From positions 1 to 42,057 of the IMG/VR virus record IMGVR_UViG_3300023196_001369: a DNA stretch of 42,057 bases, one strand, 5' to 3'. Made by a program: the position numbers and the translations under genes. The stretch is from a virus. The notes under the pieces were generated by a model, which was not told the origin of the DNA, did no database searches, and saw only the letters and a list, made by a program, of their open reading frames with translations. Below are positions 6,772 to 20,432 of the stretch, in pieces (positions within the stretch are counted from its first letter, which is position 1; every line of letters begins with the position of its first letter).

Positions 6772-8724
6772 TTATGGGTTATTAGATTTTACGGTAAGAC
6801 TTTGTGACAAAGCATTCATTAGCCGCCATAGATTGCGATCGTTCGGGCCTTCTACCACATTTCCTCTACCACCTTCGACTGGCTTTGTTTCATCACCTAT
6901 TAATACAACATATTGCGGCTTATCACGACTATAGGCGGCAGCTATACCTGTCCCCATGGCCATCGTTACTAAAGCTGCGTCTAAATTTTTGAGAACACCC
7001 CCAAATTTGCCCGCAAACGGTGCTAGATGCTCGGCCATTTTTTCGATTGGCACACCAGCGGCATCTGCTACTGCTCGGAAAAGTAGTGCTCGTTCTGCTA
7101 ATATTTCTGGAGTATCTTTGCCATCATTGCCAATACCAGCAACTGACATAAGCCCTTGCGCACCACTAGCTAGTGTTGCTACTTCAGCAATAAAATTAGT
7201 TGCTCCTACAAATGTCTCACTAGATGGTAATTTTTCTAGTTTATTAATAAACCCCATGAGTCCATCTGGATTATTAACATCAACATTAAATGCTTTTAGC
7301 GTACTACCCATAATTGTATTTTGTAATTCTGCAGCAGCAGTATTGATTTGGTTAACCATACCTGACAATGCTGTTCCAGCTCTGCCAGCTGAAGATTCAA
7401 GTATGGTCATATTTTCGTTAACTTGATCAGCAACAGTCTTTCCTTGTTGTGTAGTACTAGCAAATGCTTCCATACGAGTTTGAAGAATTGCCTGTGCGCC
7501 TGCTTGACCAGCACCAGCTCTCGATAAAAGACCATCATCAACATCAATATTAGCAAATTGATCAACTAACGCCTGGGATGCAGCTGCTATAGTCTCTTTA
7601 TCAGCACCAGCATTTACCATTTGAGAAAATTCTTCTAAGTTTGATCGCAAATCAATACCTTCTGCACTTGCAGCGGCCGAAAGTTGTGTGAATGAATCGT
7701 TAAACTTATCCATTGGTACACCAGCAATTAAATTTGTCAATGCTGTTTGTATTGGTCCACCAGGACCACCGGCACTTCCCAATGCGGATAATCCTTCAAC
7801 TAGTGTTTTTTGTGACTCAAGTTGTTCTTCACTCATCCTAGATGCCGCAGCAGCTACAATAGCATTTTTTCTAAATTCGTTACGAGCTTTTATTCTATCT
7901 TGAACATCTTGACCGTTTAATCCAGCCATAACTTCATTTAGCTTTAAGTTTTCTTTCATACTTTCAACCATTTGATCTCTAGTGTTTGCTTCTAAAAAAG
8001 CTTCATTTCTAGTACTGCGTCTAAGTTCAATTTCGTCTATTAGCATTGTAGACATTTCTTTAGAACCCATGCCAAAGAACCCCATGTCTCTTGTTGCTTC
8101 ACGTAATGATCTGTTTAGTGCTAAAAATTGGCTTGTTCCGTCTGTAGTATTAACGCCAAGTGATCGAATAGCATTTCCATTTTCAACAGTAATTTTGGAA
8201 AGTGTTTGCATATCTAAACCAACAGCAGCAGCATCAGTACGCAATTGTACTAGATCTACACCAAGTCCACCGCCTGTTCGACGCAATGCGCCCAAGGCCG
8301 ATCCAAATTCTTCCATAATACCAAATAGTGTACCAACTTGAGCACCCATTACGGTTAACCCCATTGCCCCAAGTATTCCGTCTTTTCCTGCTAACCCACT
8401 AAGTGATTCAGAACCAGTTGATCTATTAAGCGCACTGCTTGCACTCATTGCGTTCATTGATCGCAGATTTTTGTTTAATTTGGCAAAGTTTTTGTCTTCG
8501 TCTGAATTACCTTTTTTAATTGCTGAGGTTAAATCTTTATTACTTTTTGTTTCTTGCCGATCGTTCTGGATACTAATACCCATGGATGCCGCAATTTTTT
8601 GCAGTGCGTCTGTTTGACGGCTTGCTTGCTCAAGAACGTCTTGCTGTGTTCCTTCCATAGCGAAATCAGGTATGTTTACTGTAACTCCTGGAGTCCCACC
8701 GTATGGTATATTAACTGATGCCAT
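6772..8724 (-). CDS. Candidate tail tape measure protein (gp29-like)
   Basis: A 650-aa Ala/Gly/Met-rich, mainly helical protein. Hydrophobic Gly-rich segments lie near residues 110-150 (GILGAMGLTVMGAQVG) and 565-605 (FGGVLKNLDAALVTMAMGTG). Charged helices fill residues 25-95. Size is close to T4 gp29 (590 aa). No diagnostic motif is seen; the call rests on length, composition, a late promoter and divergence from a gp26-like gene whose -1 frameshift extension resembles tape-measure chaperones. Another tail or virion protein is possible. Confidence 0.55.
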   Translation of the reverse strand: MASVNIPYGGTPGVTVNIPDFAMEGTQQDVLEQASRQTDALQKIAASMGISIQNDRQETKSNKDLTSAIKKGNSDEDKNFAKLNKNLRSMNAMSASSALNRSTGSESLSGLAGKDGILGAMGLTVMGAQVGTLFGIMEEFGSALGALRRTGGGLGVDLVQLRTDAAAVGLDMQTLSKITVENGNAIRSLGVNTTDGTSQFLALNRSLREATRDMGFFGMGSKEMSTMLIDEIELRRSTRNEAFLEANTRDQMVESMKENLKLNEVMAGLNGQDVQDRIKARNEFRKNAIVAAAASRMSEEQLESQKTLVEGLSALGSAGGPGGPIQTALTNLIAGVPMDKFNDSFTQLSAAASAEGIDLRSNLEEFSQMVNAGADKETIAAASQALVDQFANIDVDDGLLSRAGAGQAGAQAILQTRMEAFASTTQQGKTVADQVNENMTILESSAGRAGTALSGMVNQINTAAAELQNTIMGSTLKAFNVDVNNPDGLMGFINKLEKLPSSETFVGATNFIAEVATLASGAQGLMSVAGIGNDGKDTPEILAERALLFRAVADAAGVPIEKMAEHLAPFAGKFGGVLKNLDAALVTMAMGTGIAAAYSRDKPQYVVLIGDETKPVEGGRGNVVEGPNDRNLWRLMNALSQSLTVKSNNP

Positions 8725-8761: not shown

Positions 8762-8769
8762 TATTTATA
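8762..8769 (-). promoter_or_regulatory. Late promoter, TATAAATA, for the tape-measure candidate
   Basis: Perfect late box on the minus strand, predicted start near 8756 and leader of about 32 nt to the ATG at 8724. It lies inside the leader of the plus-strand gp26-like gene, so the two promoters are crossed. Confidence 0.7.
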
Positions 8770-8777
8770 GGTGAAAA

Positions 8778-9611
8778 ATGACAAAAACACTACAAGACTT
8801 TTACAGACACAAAGAGATATACATAAAGTTGCCAACCGAGGGCAAATGGTATACATCTCAAACAAATTTAAACGATCAAAATGAGATTGGCGTACTACCA
8901 ATGAGTTTCAAAGATGAAATGCTGTTAAATATTCCTGATAGTGTATACAATGGTGAAAGCCTATTTGAAATCTTAAAGAGCATACTTCCTGATATGGAAA
9001 ATCCATATGAAATCTTAATGCCAGATGTAGACATTGTCTTGCTAGCTAGTAGAATCAACAGTAATGATGGTGAGATGTCTGTTGACGCAAAATGTACACA
9101 CTGTGGTACCCAAGAACAATACTCTATAAAGATAATTAATATCTTAAATCAAATTAAGCCTATTGAACCAATTGAACTAGAACTGTCTAACGGATTAATT
9201 GTGTCATTTAAACCAAATAGTTTGCGTAGTGTAACTACTAACCAAATTAAAATAACTGAAATGTCCAGTATACTCTCAACATTTAATAAAGATGATGATA
9301 AAGAAACACAGCATAAACTCTTTTCAGAAAGTTTAGAAAAAACAGCAGCAGCTAATCTAGTTTTGATTGCTGACACTATTGAATACGTACTACTGCCATC
9401 TGGAGATAAAATTACAGACTTACAAGCTATACTTGATTGGATTAGTAACAGTGATAGTAACACTGTTAAAAAGTTACAAACTATGTCGAATCAAATTAAT
9501 GAAAATGGACTTAACAAAAACTTTAAATTTGAATGTAGTAATGAGGAATGTGGGAAAGAGTTTAACTCACCGGTGGAATTTAACCCAACTTTTTTTTTCA
9601 CCAACAACTAA
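8778..9611 (+). CDS. 26: Baseplate hub / tail-assembly protein (gp26-like)
   Basis: A 277-aa protein of the family annotated as gp26 in T4-like marine phages. Seen directly: N-terminal KLPTEGKWY, then LPMSFKDEMLLN.PD..., a CTHCG pair near residue 111, a C-terminal CSNEECG pair near 254 and the ending VEFNPTFFF. The cysteine pairs suggest a zinc-binding fold. In T4 gp26 takes part in assembly of the central baseplate hub. The last codons run over nine T (9590-9598), from which the -1 frame is open for 80 more codons, so a longer 354-aa product is likely. It is the only plus-strand unit between two minus-strand blocks. Confidence 0.8.
   Translation: MTKTLQDFYRHKEIYIKLPTEGKWYTSQTNLNDQNEIGVLPMSFKDEMLLNIPDSVYNGESLFEILKSILPDMENPYEILMPDVDIVLLASRINSNDGEMSVDAKCTHCGTQEQYSIKIINILNQIKPIEPIELELSNGLIVSFKPNSLRSVTTNQIKITEMSSILSTFNKDDDKETQHKLFSESLEKTAAANLVLIADTIEYVLLPSGDKITDLQAILDWISNSDSNTVKKLQTMSNQINENGLNKNFKFECSNEECGKEFNSPVEFNPTFFFTNN
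9590..9599 (+). promoter_or_regulatory. Putative -1 ribosomal frameshift site (poly-T slippery run)
   Basis: Nine T at 9590-9598 read in frame as ACT TTT TTT TTC, giving slippery heptamers T-TTT-TTT and T-TTT-TTC. The zero-frame stop is at 9609-9611. A -1 shift enters a frame without stops until 9841 that includes the 63-aa downstream ORF. Transcriptional slippage on the run would give a similar mixture. Confidence 0.65.
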
Positions 9612-9649
9612 GAGCTAATCCGACTAATAGTCAAGCCTTAGTTGATGAG

Positions 9650-9841
9650 ATGAATGAAATCAATAAAAATCTAAGAAAACAAGTATATGATATTGTACTG
9701 TATACCGAAGGCGCATTTTCGGTAAAAGAGCTATATCATATGCCATTATATCATTCAACTGAAATTATTAATTCATTCTCAGAAAAGAATAAACGAGAGC
9801 AAGCTGCCATAGAAGCAGCATCAGGTAAGAAGACATTTTAA
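9650..9841 (+). CDS. gp51-like extension, probably translated by -1 frameshift from the gp26-like gene
   Basis: A free-standing reading begins at ATG 9650 (63 aa, MNEINKNLRKQVYD...), but there is no Shine-Dalgarno site before it and the same frame is open upstream through the poly-T run at 9590. Read from there it adds FHQQLRANPTNSQALVDE before this Met, so this is most simply the C-terminal extension of a 354-aa fusion. It is helical and charged. Lambda and many other tailed phages make tail chaperones G and G-T this way; T4 hub chaperone gp51 is the positional analogue. Independent initiation at 9650 cannot be excluded. Confidence 0.65.
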   Translation: MNEINKNLRKQVYDIVLYTEGAFSVKELYHMPLYHSTEIINSFSEKNKREQAAIEAASGKKTF

Positions 9842-9883
9842 TCTGAAGTGTTCATTTATATCTAAGTAAGTTTTATCATTACT

Positions 9884-9901
9884 TGATGTCTTACGACATC
9901 A
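9884..9901 (+). repeat. Perfect hairpin in intergenic region
   Basis: TGATGTC and GACATCA pair around TTAC, 43 nt after the stop codon of the frameshift extension. No U run follows, so it is not a classic terminator; it could protect the 3' end of the plus-strand transcript. Confidence 0.5.
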
Positions 9902-9937
9902 TCAATCTTCACTATCGTTCGATTGAATCATTTCATT

Positions 9938-10003
9938 CGATATATTCGAATATCATATCATATCATATATCATTATGATATATATTATATATATTATTGA
10001 TCA
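9938..10003. repeat. AT-rich repeat and palindrome tract
   Basis: Almost pure A/T with three tandem TATCA units (9951-9965) running into a 19-nt palindrome, ATATATCAT-T-ATGATATAT (9965-9983), followed by alternating AT. It separates the convergent gp26 unit and the GIY-YIG/ncRNA region. It may be an easily melted site, a late transcription end or a protein-binding site; no known origin motif is recognised. Confidence 0.5.
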
Positions 10004-10018
10004 TTACCATGAACTAAA

Positions 10019-10236
10019 GTCGCACTTAGCCTGATTTAGGCCAAGCACGACAAAAGAGTCTGATATTACCAGTCACCTTGTACACCCTTATAGCAAAACT
10101 AGTAAAATACTAGCAGAGGCGGTTGTGCGATACCCCTTTACATGCTGCTTTCAACGCAAGCTACCAAGTTGCAATAAAGGCTACTAACTTGGAAATACTC
10201 GTGGGTTACAATGGCGCAGTAGAGCCCACTCTTTTG
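10019..10236. ncRNA. Structured non-coding RNA candidate (about 220 nt)
   Basis: Gene-free, less AT-rich than its flanks and full of exact pairings. These are a 14-bp hairpin (10019-10051), a perfect 9-bp long-range helix (10051-10059 with 10228-10236), and hairpins at 10099-10113 (CTAGTA/TACTAG), 10164-10192 (CCAAGTT/AACTTGG) and 10201-10229 (GTGGG/CCCAC). A competing helix joins TCGCAC (10020-10025) with GTGCGA (10125-10130). In the 14-bp hairpin three non-Watson-Crick positions are G-U on the minus strand but A-C on the plus strand, favouring minus, downstream of the GIY-YIG gene. One pair in the 10201-10229 hairpin favours plus, so strand is open. No tmRNA, RNase P or clear group I core is recognised. 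Confidence 0.55.
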
Positions 10237-10298
10237 GTTTGTTTTCCCCCAGCAAATTCCGTTGTCTAACAAATTTAATTGCGACTCCTCGATGCTTG

Positions 10299-10733
10299 TT
10301 ATAGAGGGGGTATAATATTTTTTAGTGATTCTTTAAGAGCCTGAGATCCGCCAATGCGGACATTTATGATGCCGTTATAGTATTCGTCAGTGAGTAATAC
10401 CGCTCTGTCGAATTGTTCTTTTGCCTCAAGGTATGAAAGTTGGCCACGTGTAGTACAGAAATATAAAATTTCTCTACTAAAATTTTCTGGGCCTAATTCA
10501 GTTATGTCTGCCAATAAGTGTTCTGAAGATCCCCAGTATGTCTGCCAATCGCTTTCTACTAGTGATTTTCTTTTACGTTTTTTGCCTTTTAGGGGTGGCC
10601 GAGTTTTTTTAAACTTGGCTAATTTTTTGCCTATGTATTTTTTGTTGTTAGTCAGATTAGTAATGATGTATACAAACCCAATATATTGGTCAGCTATCTC
10701 TTCAACAAGATTGCCATTGTATTTCCATTGCAT
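10299..10733 (-). CDS. GIY-YIG nuclease (stand-alone, Seg/homing type)
   Basis: A 144-aa protein with the GIY-YIG core at residues 19-35 (GFVYIITN...KKYIG), a very basic stretch (residues 36-58, KKTRPPLKGKKRKRK) likely to bind DNA, and the SDWQTYWGSS motif found in phage members of the family. The later Glu in EAKEQFDR is the candidate metal ligand. Such genes are often homing endonucleases without introns or phage DNA nucleases. There is no Shine-Dalgarno site before ATGCAATGG, unlike neighbouring genes, and a 45-nt gap separates it from the phosphomannomutase gene. These features fit a later insertion. The structured RNA lies directly downstream. Confidence 0.8.
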   Translation of the reverse strand: MQWKYNGNLVEEIADQYIGFVYIITNLTNNKKYIGKKLAKFKKTRPPLKGKKRKRKSLVESDWQTYWGSSEHLLADITELGPENFSREILYFCTTRGQLSYLEAKEQFDRAVLLTDEYYNGIINVRIGGSQALKESLKNIIPPL

Positions 10734-16885: not shown

Positions 16886-17184
16886 TGGCAAATTATTCTA
16901 ATTCCAGCAGCTATGCGGCAACTCCGCAAAATTTAAAGTACTTGGATATATATCAACCAAAACTAACAGATGCTTCACTATCACAAGAAGCAAAACTTAT
17001 GCGCATTGGTAATAGATACAACCGTAGACCAGATCTACTTGCTTTTGACATGTATGGTAGCAGTAGTTATTGGTGGATATTTGTACACTATAATCGTGAC
17101 AAACTTCGGGATCCAATTAATGATTTTGTAGCAGGACTTGAAATTAAAGTACCTTCAAAGTCAAGTGCCTTCGGAGCTAGTTAA
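16885..17184 (+). CDS. 53: Baseplate wedge subunit (gp53-like, LysM-type)
   Basis: Ninety-nine residues matching the gp53 core: RRPDLLAFDMYGSSSYWWIF (about 47-66), then RD..NDF..G..I.VPS, the small LysM-like fold that locks wedges to the hub. T4 gp53 is 196 aa, so this keeps the essential domain. Tight overlaps with both neighbours (1 nt each) place it in the baseplate operon. Confidence 0.8.
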   Translation: MANYSNSSSYAATPQNLKYLDIYQPKLTDASLSQEAKLMRIGNRYNRRPDLLAFDMYGSSSYWWIFVHYNRDKLRDPINDFVAGLEIKVPSKSSAFGAS

Positions 17185-20100
17185 TGTCACCAACACCTCC
17201 TAGCAATCCTCCATCATTTGAATCACAACTTAGTTTCATTAACCATGAAATGGGAACTGGTGACGGTGGTAATGTGGCTAGCCAATTTCAAAATAATCCT
17301 AACATGTCAGTAAATCAAGCTGCTACTATATTTGAAAACCGGTACGAAAGAGCTGGCGGACATGCTCTTAGTACACGTATTGACAATGCTAATAATGTAT
17401 TCAGCGCAGCACAATCTGGTACACTTAGTTCAATAAGTCCTAATGTGTCAAGCGCATTTAATTATTTTACCAGTCAAGGATTCACTCCACAGCAAGCAAG
17501 TGGTATTGTTGGTAACTTAATGGCGGAAAGTACTAGTAGGCTTGATCCTGACGCATTTAATACAGCTGGCGGAGGTGATGGTGCTTTTGGTATTGCCCAA
17601 TGGCGTGCTGGAAGACAAGACAATGTACTTAACTGGGACGGCACGGCAATAATCCCATCAGAAGATTTTGTACCTGATCCAACCAATAATGTTGAAACTA
17701 TTAATAGTCCAGAAGCCGCGGCCCAAGCCGTAAATGGAGAAACAACACCAAATACAAGCGGTGAATCATTTTACAAAGATAATATCTTAAACAAGTATGA
17801 AGGCTATACTTATAGTTGGGCAATACATATGATTAACCCAACTCGTGCTCAAGAATTTGAAAAAAACCTCGAACAAGGTACTTTTATTACATTAGCTGAA
17901 TCTGGAGTTGAAAATGAGATCAGTATTGAAACAGTAATACAACAAACAACGTTGGCATTTGTAAGAGAAAATAGAAACTCAGTCTCGAATAGCTTTGATA
18001 TTTCCTTTACTGAAGCAAAGGGTATGACATTTCTTAATCGAATTATGCTAGCTGCCAGTGAACTTGGTATTAGAAATCATCTTGAAGCAAATTATCTACT
18101 TGAGCTCAACTTTCGAGGATGGAATACGTCTGATACTTCAATAAAAGATGAGGAAATTGGACCGTTTTATTATGTAGCAGGTATAACAGATTTTCAAATG
18201 AAACATACTGATAGTGCAACTAACTATCAAGTTACATTTATTGAAACTGAATACGCAGCTTACCGTCGAATGGACCTACACTTAAAAACTGACATAACAG
18301 TTACGGCTAGTAACTTTGGAGATTTTTTAGATAATTTTACTACTGAAGTTAATAAAGAAGTTAAAAGACAAGTTGAAACTACAATAGCAAGACTATATCC
18401 AAACGAATATGTATTTGGTACAAATGGAGAATCTGATGAATGGCGTAGTTGGGAATTTGATGCCATTGTTGGTTCTAATTTACAAGAAAGTCGCAATATT
18501 AGTGTTTCGTCATCTGGTGGAACTGTTACATTTGATTTAAAAAAAGGTACAGCTATGACAGCTGCCATTTCTGCAGCAGTATTACAAACTAGAAATTTTA
18601 AAAGGATACCACTTGTTGGAAATAATCAATTTGCTAAAGATAATACTAATGCTGGTACAATTGGAGATTACCAAAAACTAGCGGATCTAATGAAGTGGTT
18701 TATGTTTAAAACAAAAGTAGAATATCTAGTAGATTATGATCCAGTTGCCAAGCAATATCCAAGAAAATTTACATACAACATTACAGCATATACTATACCA
18801 CAAGGCATCCATGATCCTCTTAGTTTCACGAGACTGGCTGATGATGAGACGGCACAACGAACTCGCTTAAATAATATATTAAATTATGGATTATTGCGTA
18901 AACGATATGATTATACATATACTGGACTCAACAGTGAAGTCCTAGACCTTGATCTATCATTAAACACGATCTTTTTCGTTACTCAACCTATGGCTGGAGG
19001 AGGACTTGGTGCTGATGGGTTATTTCCTGGATTAACGCAAGCACAAAGTAGATCTCTTGCTACTGCAGACAGATATCGAGATGCTGTAAATGAAGTAACT
19101 CGGTTAGAACGTGAAGCTACAGCATTAAATGAAGAATTACAAAGTGCTGATCCAAGAAACGAAGATGGGCGAGTTGGACAAATTCGTACACAACTATCAG
19201 CTAATGCTAGTAATCAAGCGGCCGCAAGAAGCGTTTTAAACATGCGGAACAATGCAGTTAGATTAGCAGGGGAACAACTAGACGCTCAACGAAATACTGG
19301 TACTGTCGAGTTCACACCAACTAAAAACAAGTATATAACACAAACTGATCTTTATAGCAACAGTGATAGAGAAAAAATGAATAATTCAGTGCAGTTTGAT
19401 TATAGAAATGTTAGCGATAGTTTAGCTACTAGTGGTGTTGATGCTCAAGACGATCCCGGGGCAATGATGCTGGGCGCCTTAGAACTTAATCTTAATTCTA
19501 CTGGCGAGTTAGTTGAACAACGGCTATCTATTAGAGGTGATCCTTATTGGTTAGGTAAACCAAAAGGTGCAGCAGCAAGTAATGATAATCAGGCTGATTA
19601 TGATTTTGGCGGGCTAGGGTACTTTTTTAACATGAAATTTCCAGTTTATGAAAATGAAACTACTGGATTAATGCCTAAACAAAATTTTGGTGTAACAGCA
19701 TTGTACCGGGTTAGTACAGTAACATCACAATATATGATGGGAGAATTTAAACAAACTCTTGAATCAATACGAGACACAAATACAAACAATGAAACAATGA
19801 TACAACAGTTAATATCTGGTCAAATTGTTGGTGGACAAACTAGAACTCTACAACAAAAATACACTGATACAAATAATTCTGATAATGAAAACCCAAATCC
19901 AAACGGTGTTCCAGTGGACGATACTAGCACCACGCTTGATCCAGCAGCATCTGGAAATGCGCCAGGTAACATTAGCGGTGATACTGCTGGTGTTGATAAC
20001 AGATTATTAGCCGCAATGGGAGTTGCTGGCGCACAAACTGGATTAGATATGGTTGTAACAAGTGGCAATCGTGGTCCTGGTGGCAGTGGTAGACATAATG

Positions 20101-20432
20101 GATTTGCAGCTGATTCACAACTTCGAACTAGTGATGGTAGAGTACTAAGTGTTGAAAATCCTGCTGATCTAGCACTTATACAAAACTATACACAGGCCTT
20201 TTTGAACGAAACTCGTGCGCAAGGGTTAACACCAAGTGTAGGCATAGCTAACCCAGCATTCGGGTCTGGCAGTGAGCTATATATGAGTGGAACATCACAT
20301 CACTTTGATATTGCGATGACACCTGGCAGTGGCGCCAGTTTAAGCCCAACAGCAGCCCCATATTGGGGTGGCAGTACTCGTACAAAACACCACAGGCCAC
20401 CAACTTGGCTTGTGAACATGTATAATAGTTAA
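17184..20432 (+). CDS. Baseplate hub (gp27-like) with N-terminal lysozyme and C-terminal M15-like peptidase domains
   Basis: A 1082-aa modular hub. Residues 83-150 are the first half of a phage tail lysozyme domain (QGFTPQQASGIVGNLMAES with candidate catalytic Glu115, then GAFGIAQWRAGR). Residues 15-60 (QLSFINHEM...AATIFENRYERAGG) resemble that domain's second half, so the order looks circularly permuted. Residues about 210-600 look like a gp27-type hub (SFTEAKGMTFLNRIMLAASE, YLLELNFRGW). Residues 619-705 are a coiled-coil insertion. Residues about 940-1082 carry GSGRHNGFAAD and GTSHHFDIA, the H/D metal-ligand pattern of M15 (VanY/VanX) peptidases. It probably cuts peptidoglycan during injection. 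Function of each lytic module is inferred from motifs. Confidence 0.8.
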   Translation: MSPTPPSNPPSFESQLSFINHEMGTGDGGNVASQFQNNPNMSVNQAATIFENRYERAGGHALSTRIDNANNVFSAAQSGTLSSISPNVSSAFNYFTSQGFTPQQASGIVGNLMAESTSRLDPDAFNTAGGGDGAFGIAQWRAGRQDNVLNWDGTAIIPSEDFVPDPTNNVETINSPEAAAQAVNGETTPNTSGESFYKDNILNKYEGYTYSWAIHMINPTRAQEFEKNLEQGTFITLAESGVENEISIETVIQQTTLAFVRENRNSVSNSFDISFTEAKGMTFLNRIMLAASELGIRNHLEANYLLELNFRGWNTSDTSIKDEEIGPFYYVAGITDFQMKHTDSATNYQVTFIETEYAAYRRMDLHLKTDITVTASNFGDFLDNFTTEVNKEVKRQVETTIARLYPNEYVFGTNGESDEWRSWEFDAIVGSNLQESRNISVSSSGGTVTFDLKKGTAMTAAISAAVLQTRNFKRIPLVGNNQFAKDNTNAGTIGDYQKLADLMKWFMFKTKVEYLVDYDPVAKQYPRKFTYNITAYTIPQGIHDPLSFTRLADDETAQRTRLNNILNYGLLRKRYDYTYTGLNSEVLDLDLSLNTIFFVTQPMAGGGLGADGLFPGLTQAQSRSLATADRYRDAVNEVTRLEREATALNEELQSADPRNEDGRVGQIRTQLSANASNQAAARSVLNMRNNAVRLAGEQLDAQRNTGTVEFTPTKNKYITQTDLYSNSDREKMNNSVQFDYRNVSDSLATSGVDAQDDPGAMMLGALELNLNSTGELVEQRLSIRGDPYWLGKPKGAAASNDNQADYDFGGLGYFFNMKFPVYENETTGLMPKQNFGVTALYRVSTVTSQYMMGEFKQTLESIRDTNTNNETMIQQLISGQIVGGQTRTLQQKYTDTNNSDNENPNPNGVPVDDTSTTLDPAASGNAPGNISGDTAGVDNRLLAAMGVAGAQTGLDMVVTSGNRGPGGSGRHNGFAADSQLRTSDGRVLSVENPADLALIQNYTQAFLNETRAQGLTPSVGIANPAFGSGSELYMSGTSHHFDIAMTPGSGASLSPTAAPYWGGSTRTKHHRPPTWLVNMYNS

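Follow-up and report, generated by a model that had tools for sequence, protein, structure and literature searches.

The gp26-like gene that opens at position 8778 of the window (the whole stretch of DNA analysed, 42,057 nucleotides of the IMG/VR virus record IMGVR_UViG_3300023196_001369) very probably encodes a T4-like tail assembly chaperone that is produced in two forms, through a -1 slip of the ribosome on a T run and a pause at a hairpin; we put the probability of this reading at about 0.92. According to this reading, the majority of ribosomes would remain in the 0 frame and terminate at 9609, giving a short form of 277 aa, and a minority, while decoding T_TTT_TTC, would pause at the hairpin 5 nt downstream and slip back one base, with both tRNAs re-pairing with UUU, and would then read on to 9841 in the -1 frame; the product would be a long form of 354 aa with an additional C-terminal domain of about 80 residues. 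Such a -1 programmed frameshift had been proposed in a preliminary description of this DNA, and it is strongly supported by the conservation of the heptamer, the open frames, selection, the hairpin and the codon evidence given below. Slippage presumably occurs at some efficiency, and the short and long forms would, by analogy with lambda gpG/gpGT, jointly chaperone the tape-measure protein. The features concerned are listed in Table 1.

Table 1. Positions of the features discussed in the text (window numbering, unless another locus or phage is named)
Feature	Coordinates	Strand	Remarks
650-aa virion structural protein, tape-measure candidate	6772..8724	-	divergent from the chaperone gene
Shine-Dalgarno AGGTGA	8769..8774	+	serves short and long forms; 3-nt spacer to 8778
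gp26-like 0-frame ORF (TAC-N, short form)	8778..9611	+	277 aa; PF12322 / phrog_150
Open -1 frame, full extent	9584-9841	+	
Slippery run T9C, phase T_TTT_TTT_TTC	9590..9599	+	nine T at 9590-9598, then C9599
Overlapping heptamers in the slippery run	T_TTT_TTT 9590-9596; T_TTT_TTC 9593-9599	+	
-1 frame extension FHQQLRANPT...KKTF*	9596..9841	+	C-terminal domain of the putative long form
Predicted stimulatory hairpin	9605..9644	+	starts 5 nt past the heptamer; includes the 0-frame stop
Outer 8-bp stem of the predicted hairpin	CAACUAAG 9605-9612 / CUUAGUUG 9637-9644	+	
0-frame stop TAA	9609..9611	+	
63-aa ORF nested in the -1 frame	9650..9841	+	ATG at 9650, 41 nt downstream of the 0-frame stop
Predicted -1 fusion junction in phage 121Q			...YDPSHFFR then VMLLQSSPEEIQEVLK; one protein of ~350 aa
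Loci open in +1, approximate spans	L012:3663-3874; L047:2300-2550; L048:2700-3000; L049:2540-2780; L052:2680-2880		

Slippery site and predicted hairpin

Because of the phase in which the T run is read, two overlapping -1 heptamers are present at the site, of which T_TTT_TTC lies 9 nt upstream of the 0-frame stop. The coordinates put forward earlier for the nine T, the stop and the end of the open -1 frame were all exact, and the sizes of the normal and the shifted product were the same when recomputed (273 + 81 = 354 aa for a shift on the T run). The earlier wording that the frame ends on nine T was correct as to the run and the stop, but the gene end itself lies four codons past the run (TTC-ACC-AAC-AAC). 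The window's ORFs comprise 12,911 codons, among which in-phase T_TTT_TT[T/C] occurred a single time, at this site; runs of nine T were rare in the window (two on the plus strand). Within other ORFs, none of 2,916 control positions had a -1 frame open for 84 codons (mean, 5.5). Synonymous constraint at the T run, which had been suggested as a check, was evident, as the first Phe codon of the FF pair was TTT in 40 of the 40 loci tested; TTT was kept although the gene favours TTC elsewhere (3:12 in L024, 3:12 in L031 and 3:8 in L025), including in GC-rich relatives, and the invariance corresponds to log10 P = -10, provided that the loci are independent.

The predicted hairpin had an energy of -13.4 kcal/mol (z -4.56), and a 5-nt spacer is typical for frameshift stimulators. 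Its stem was unchanged in the related loci L001 and L003, with a different loop in L003; L004 kept 5 of the 8 stem pairs and had a z of -0.6 though it belongs to the same clade. Upstream of the T run, no structure beyond chance was found. Since the stem yielded no compensatory changes (the sequences being too few and too similar) and z was below -2 in only 11 of 40 loci across the family, we regard a role of the predicted hairpin in frameshifting as likely but unproven.

Conservation among relatives and alternatives to ribosomal slippage

Loci were searched for with the N-terminal domain alone as the query, and the survey was therefore unbiased toward the slippery site. Six IMG/VR contigs (65-86% identity) all had the same T9 and -1 frame, and in the cultured jumbo phages (PA5oct, Atu_ph07, 121Q, GAP32, XaC1, Phosso, SCTP-2 and Vibrio 2.275.O; 23-30% identity), T_TTT_TTC was in phase and the -1 frame was open. 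The survey was extended to cyanophages, Melnitz-1, Vibrio schizotequatroviruses, Moby, SRB7757, XacN1, Muenster and two more IMG/VR groups; a scan of genome contigs with P0001 gave no relatives, and an alignment-based scan gave no new loci. A slippery heptamer in phase was present in all 43 loci with the terminal Phe-Phe motif (window counted), down to approximately 20-30% protein identity (T_TTT_TTC in 40 and T_TTT_TTT in 3), at 0-33 nt upstream of the 0-frame stop and with 53-82 open -1 codons past it; as these loci share ancestry, the count does not represent 43 independent events. A missing T run or a stop between the two frames in homologues, which the preliminary description had named as evidence against a frameshift, was seen in 0 of these 43. 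In L051 and L053, the heptamer was 17 and 12 codons upstream of the stop, respectively. The exceptions were T4 and phiAS4, which have two separate genes; the Ackermannviridae loci L014, L027 and L028, in which the -1 frame is open and encodes a similar C-domain, without a canonical heptamer (ends, GTT_TTC, GTT_TTT or ATT_TTC); and L044, which had neither an open -1 frame nor a canonical heptamer. Apart from the classic T4 group, nearly all of the relatives surveyed appear to share the design with a slip on a T run.

The -1 frame is under purifying selection: in six pairwise comparisons within the window clade, its dN/dS was 0.14-0.45, as against 0.67-2.86 when the same bases were read in either of the other frames. 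The stretch that separates the heptamer from the internal ATG is only 17 codons long; where it varied, silent substitutions outnumbered amino-acid-changing ones. At an overall identity of 81% across the region, the window and L001 share a run of 84 identical bases (9576-9659) that spans the site and the hairpin. What is looked for in the second ORF of a lambda G/GT-type frameshift was thus found here, namely, an ORF open in -1, without its own ribosome binding site and under selection at the protein level.

An addition of T by RNA polymerase on the T9, by which a share of the mRNAs would carry the long form in one frame, is an improbable source of the two forms. Nine consecutive T are long enough for polymerase slippage, and T9 is found in all loci of the window clade; however, most relatives have T6 followed by C in a fixed codon phase, which is the ribosomal heptamer and a poor site for polymerase slippage, and the hairpin is placed at the spacing expected for the ribosome.

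Less probable still are two separate genes, with the C-domain translated alone through reinitiation or coupling past the 0-frame stop. An ATG in the -1 frame overlaps or adjoins the stop in 17 of the 43 loci, so that some additional reinitiation is possible there, and small separate ORFs are annotated in database records. However, ATG, GTG and TTG are all absent from the -1 ORF of L007 and L024, which excludes a separate gene in those two, and many loci lack a start codon near the stop. The window is among the latter: its ATG is distant from the stop, and, as had been noted earlier, the 63-aa ORF is without a usable Shine-Dalgarno sequence, the best match being GAG abutting the ATG. Separate genes would also leave the invariant heptamer unexplained, as well as the constraint on the -1 frame upstream of the ATG. 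The 63-aa ORF is most likely not a separate gene.

A sequencing or assembly error that conceals one continuous ORF can be practically dismissed, since homopolymers are error-prone but the T9 is identical in the independent assemblies L001-L006, and finished genomes of cultured phages have the same two-frame design with T6C.

Protein family, known systems and loci open in +1

The N-domain matched PF12322 at 49.6 bits (curated cut-off, 24.5) and phrog_150 at E=4.7e-15. T4 gp26 and gp51 are paralogues that both belong to PF12322/phrog_150; each has a gene of its own, gp26 being the short form and gp51, with a C-terminal extension, the long one. AF2 gave a good model of the N-domain (pLDDT 83.5), and this model matched predicted viral proteins only, mostly T4-like gp26 relatives; Foldseek against the PDB gave no match at E<=0.001 and no solved chaperone, and a sequence search of the PDB gave weak matches to unrelated proteins only. 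Thus, we placed the protein in the T4 gp26 family and not as a fold-level member of the lambda/HK97 group, and it can be said by analogy to work like lambda G/GT.

By profile comparison, the C-domains of the window clade matched those of the Atu_ph07 group (E 5e-10) and of the GAP32 group (3.5e-6). The C-terminal part had been called gp51-like in the preliminary description; its position and a MAFFT alignment with the gp51 extension agree with this, but the profile comparison with T4 gp51 was not significant (hhalign probability, 0.14%). The C-domain of the cyanophage group gave no significant profile match to that of the window and had an hhalign probability of 56.7% with T4 gp51.

The lambda slippery sequence is G_GGA_AAG, as against T_TTT_TTC in the window; the window gene also differs from the lambda system in being divergent from its structural neighbour, and no lambda or HK97 chaperone was found by the fold search with the window N-domain. 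With T4 gp26/gp51, the window gene has in common the family (PF12322/phrog_150) and the short and long forms, but T4 has two separate genes and the window one gene with a putative frameshift. In the cyanophages S-SSM5, S-RIM8 and ACG-2014f, which carry gp26 and a gp51 annotated as 'baseplate hub assembly catalyst', T_TTT_TTC is likewise located three codons before the stop and is followed by 62-64 open -1 codons that run into the annotated gp51; these loci differ from the window in the large tail or lysis gene directly after, as well as in the C-domain profile. The tail assembly chaperone of phage Adele (Vandenendeviridae/Andersonviridae; PMC12846349) is alike in its -1 shift on the poly-T GTTTTT at the 3' end of TAC-N and in a -1 frame open over >200 bp; it comes from other phage families, and the likeness is one of design.

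That gp26/gp51 are connected with tail assembly chaperones had been published before and is not new here: passages in PMC10885494 and PMC12846349 cite Vladimirov, Gautam and Davidson 2022 (Virology 566:9-15) for the identification of gp26/gp51 as such chaperones. With the same citation, a passage of the PRFect paper (PMC10885494) states that, in some T4-like phages, the short and long chaperones come from two genes and not from frameshifting, and a passage of PMC12846349 mentions that TAC-N genes of T4-like phages contain slippery poly-T signals. The lambda gpG/gpGT frameshift is credited in PMC10885494 and PMC12859696 to Xu, Hendrix and Duda 2004.

Five loci (L047, L048, L049, L052 and L012, the last from S-SCSM1) were open in +1 and not in -1. 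In these, a stop closes the -1 frame shortly past that of the 0 frame, and the +1 frame encodes a chaperone-like C-domain; a T7-GG run is common to L047 and L048, and L049 has CTT_CCC_A. The four loci scanned against PF12322 (L012, L047, L048 and L052) were above the cut-off. A +1 or -2 shift, or an indel error in single cases, would explain these loci. It is possible, at slightly less than even odds, that PF12322 has kept the short-plus-long design by varying means, with a -1 slip in most lineages, +1 or -2 shifts in others, and a duplication of the gene in T4 and phages close to it. The T4 two-gene solution would be one of several routes to a short and a long chaperone. Where gp26 is annotated together with gp51 or a hypothetical protein, as in cyanophages, Vibrio phages and jumbo T4-like phages, the pair very probably represents a single frameshifted gene, and the small ORF would be mis-annotated. 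The cultured phages 121Q, GAP32, PA5oct and Atu_ph07 offer direct test systems.

Neighbouring genes

The gene order portal, structural protein, chaperone is conserved. The divergent structural protein showed a profile match (90.8%) to the 121Q/GAP32-type virion structural protein, and its syntenic counterpart in PA5oct carries an ESI-MS/MS note. Tape-measure profiles did not match this product, and its AF2 model (pLDDT 41.7) was of too low a quality to decide whether it is a tape measure. A 1082-aa virion protein encoded at 17184-20432 contains a 58-residue match to phrog_9570 (tail length tape measure; E 1.9e-17) and is an alternative tape-measure candidate.

Downstream of the -1 frame, the non-coding stretch 9842-10298, beside a GIY-YIG homing-endonuclease-like ORF (10299-10733, minus strand), is unusually conserved, with 196 bases identical with L003 from 10036 and 75% identity over the region; identical runs still longer than that at the slippery site thus occur further downstream, in or next to this stretch. 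Rfam gave nothing above the gathering score for 9842-10298, and the fold of its minus strand is somewhat more stable than those of shuffled sequences (z -1.9). Three tRNA genes, for His, Pro and Trp, are found on the minus strand at 413-655.
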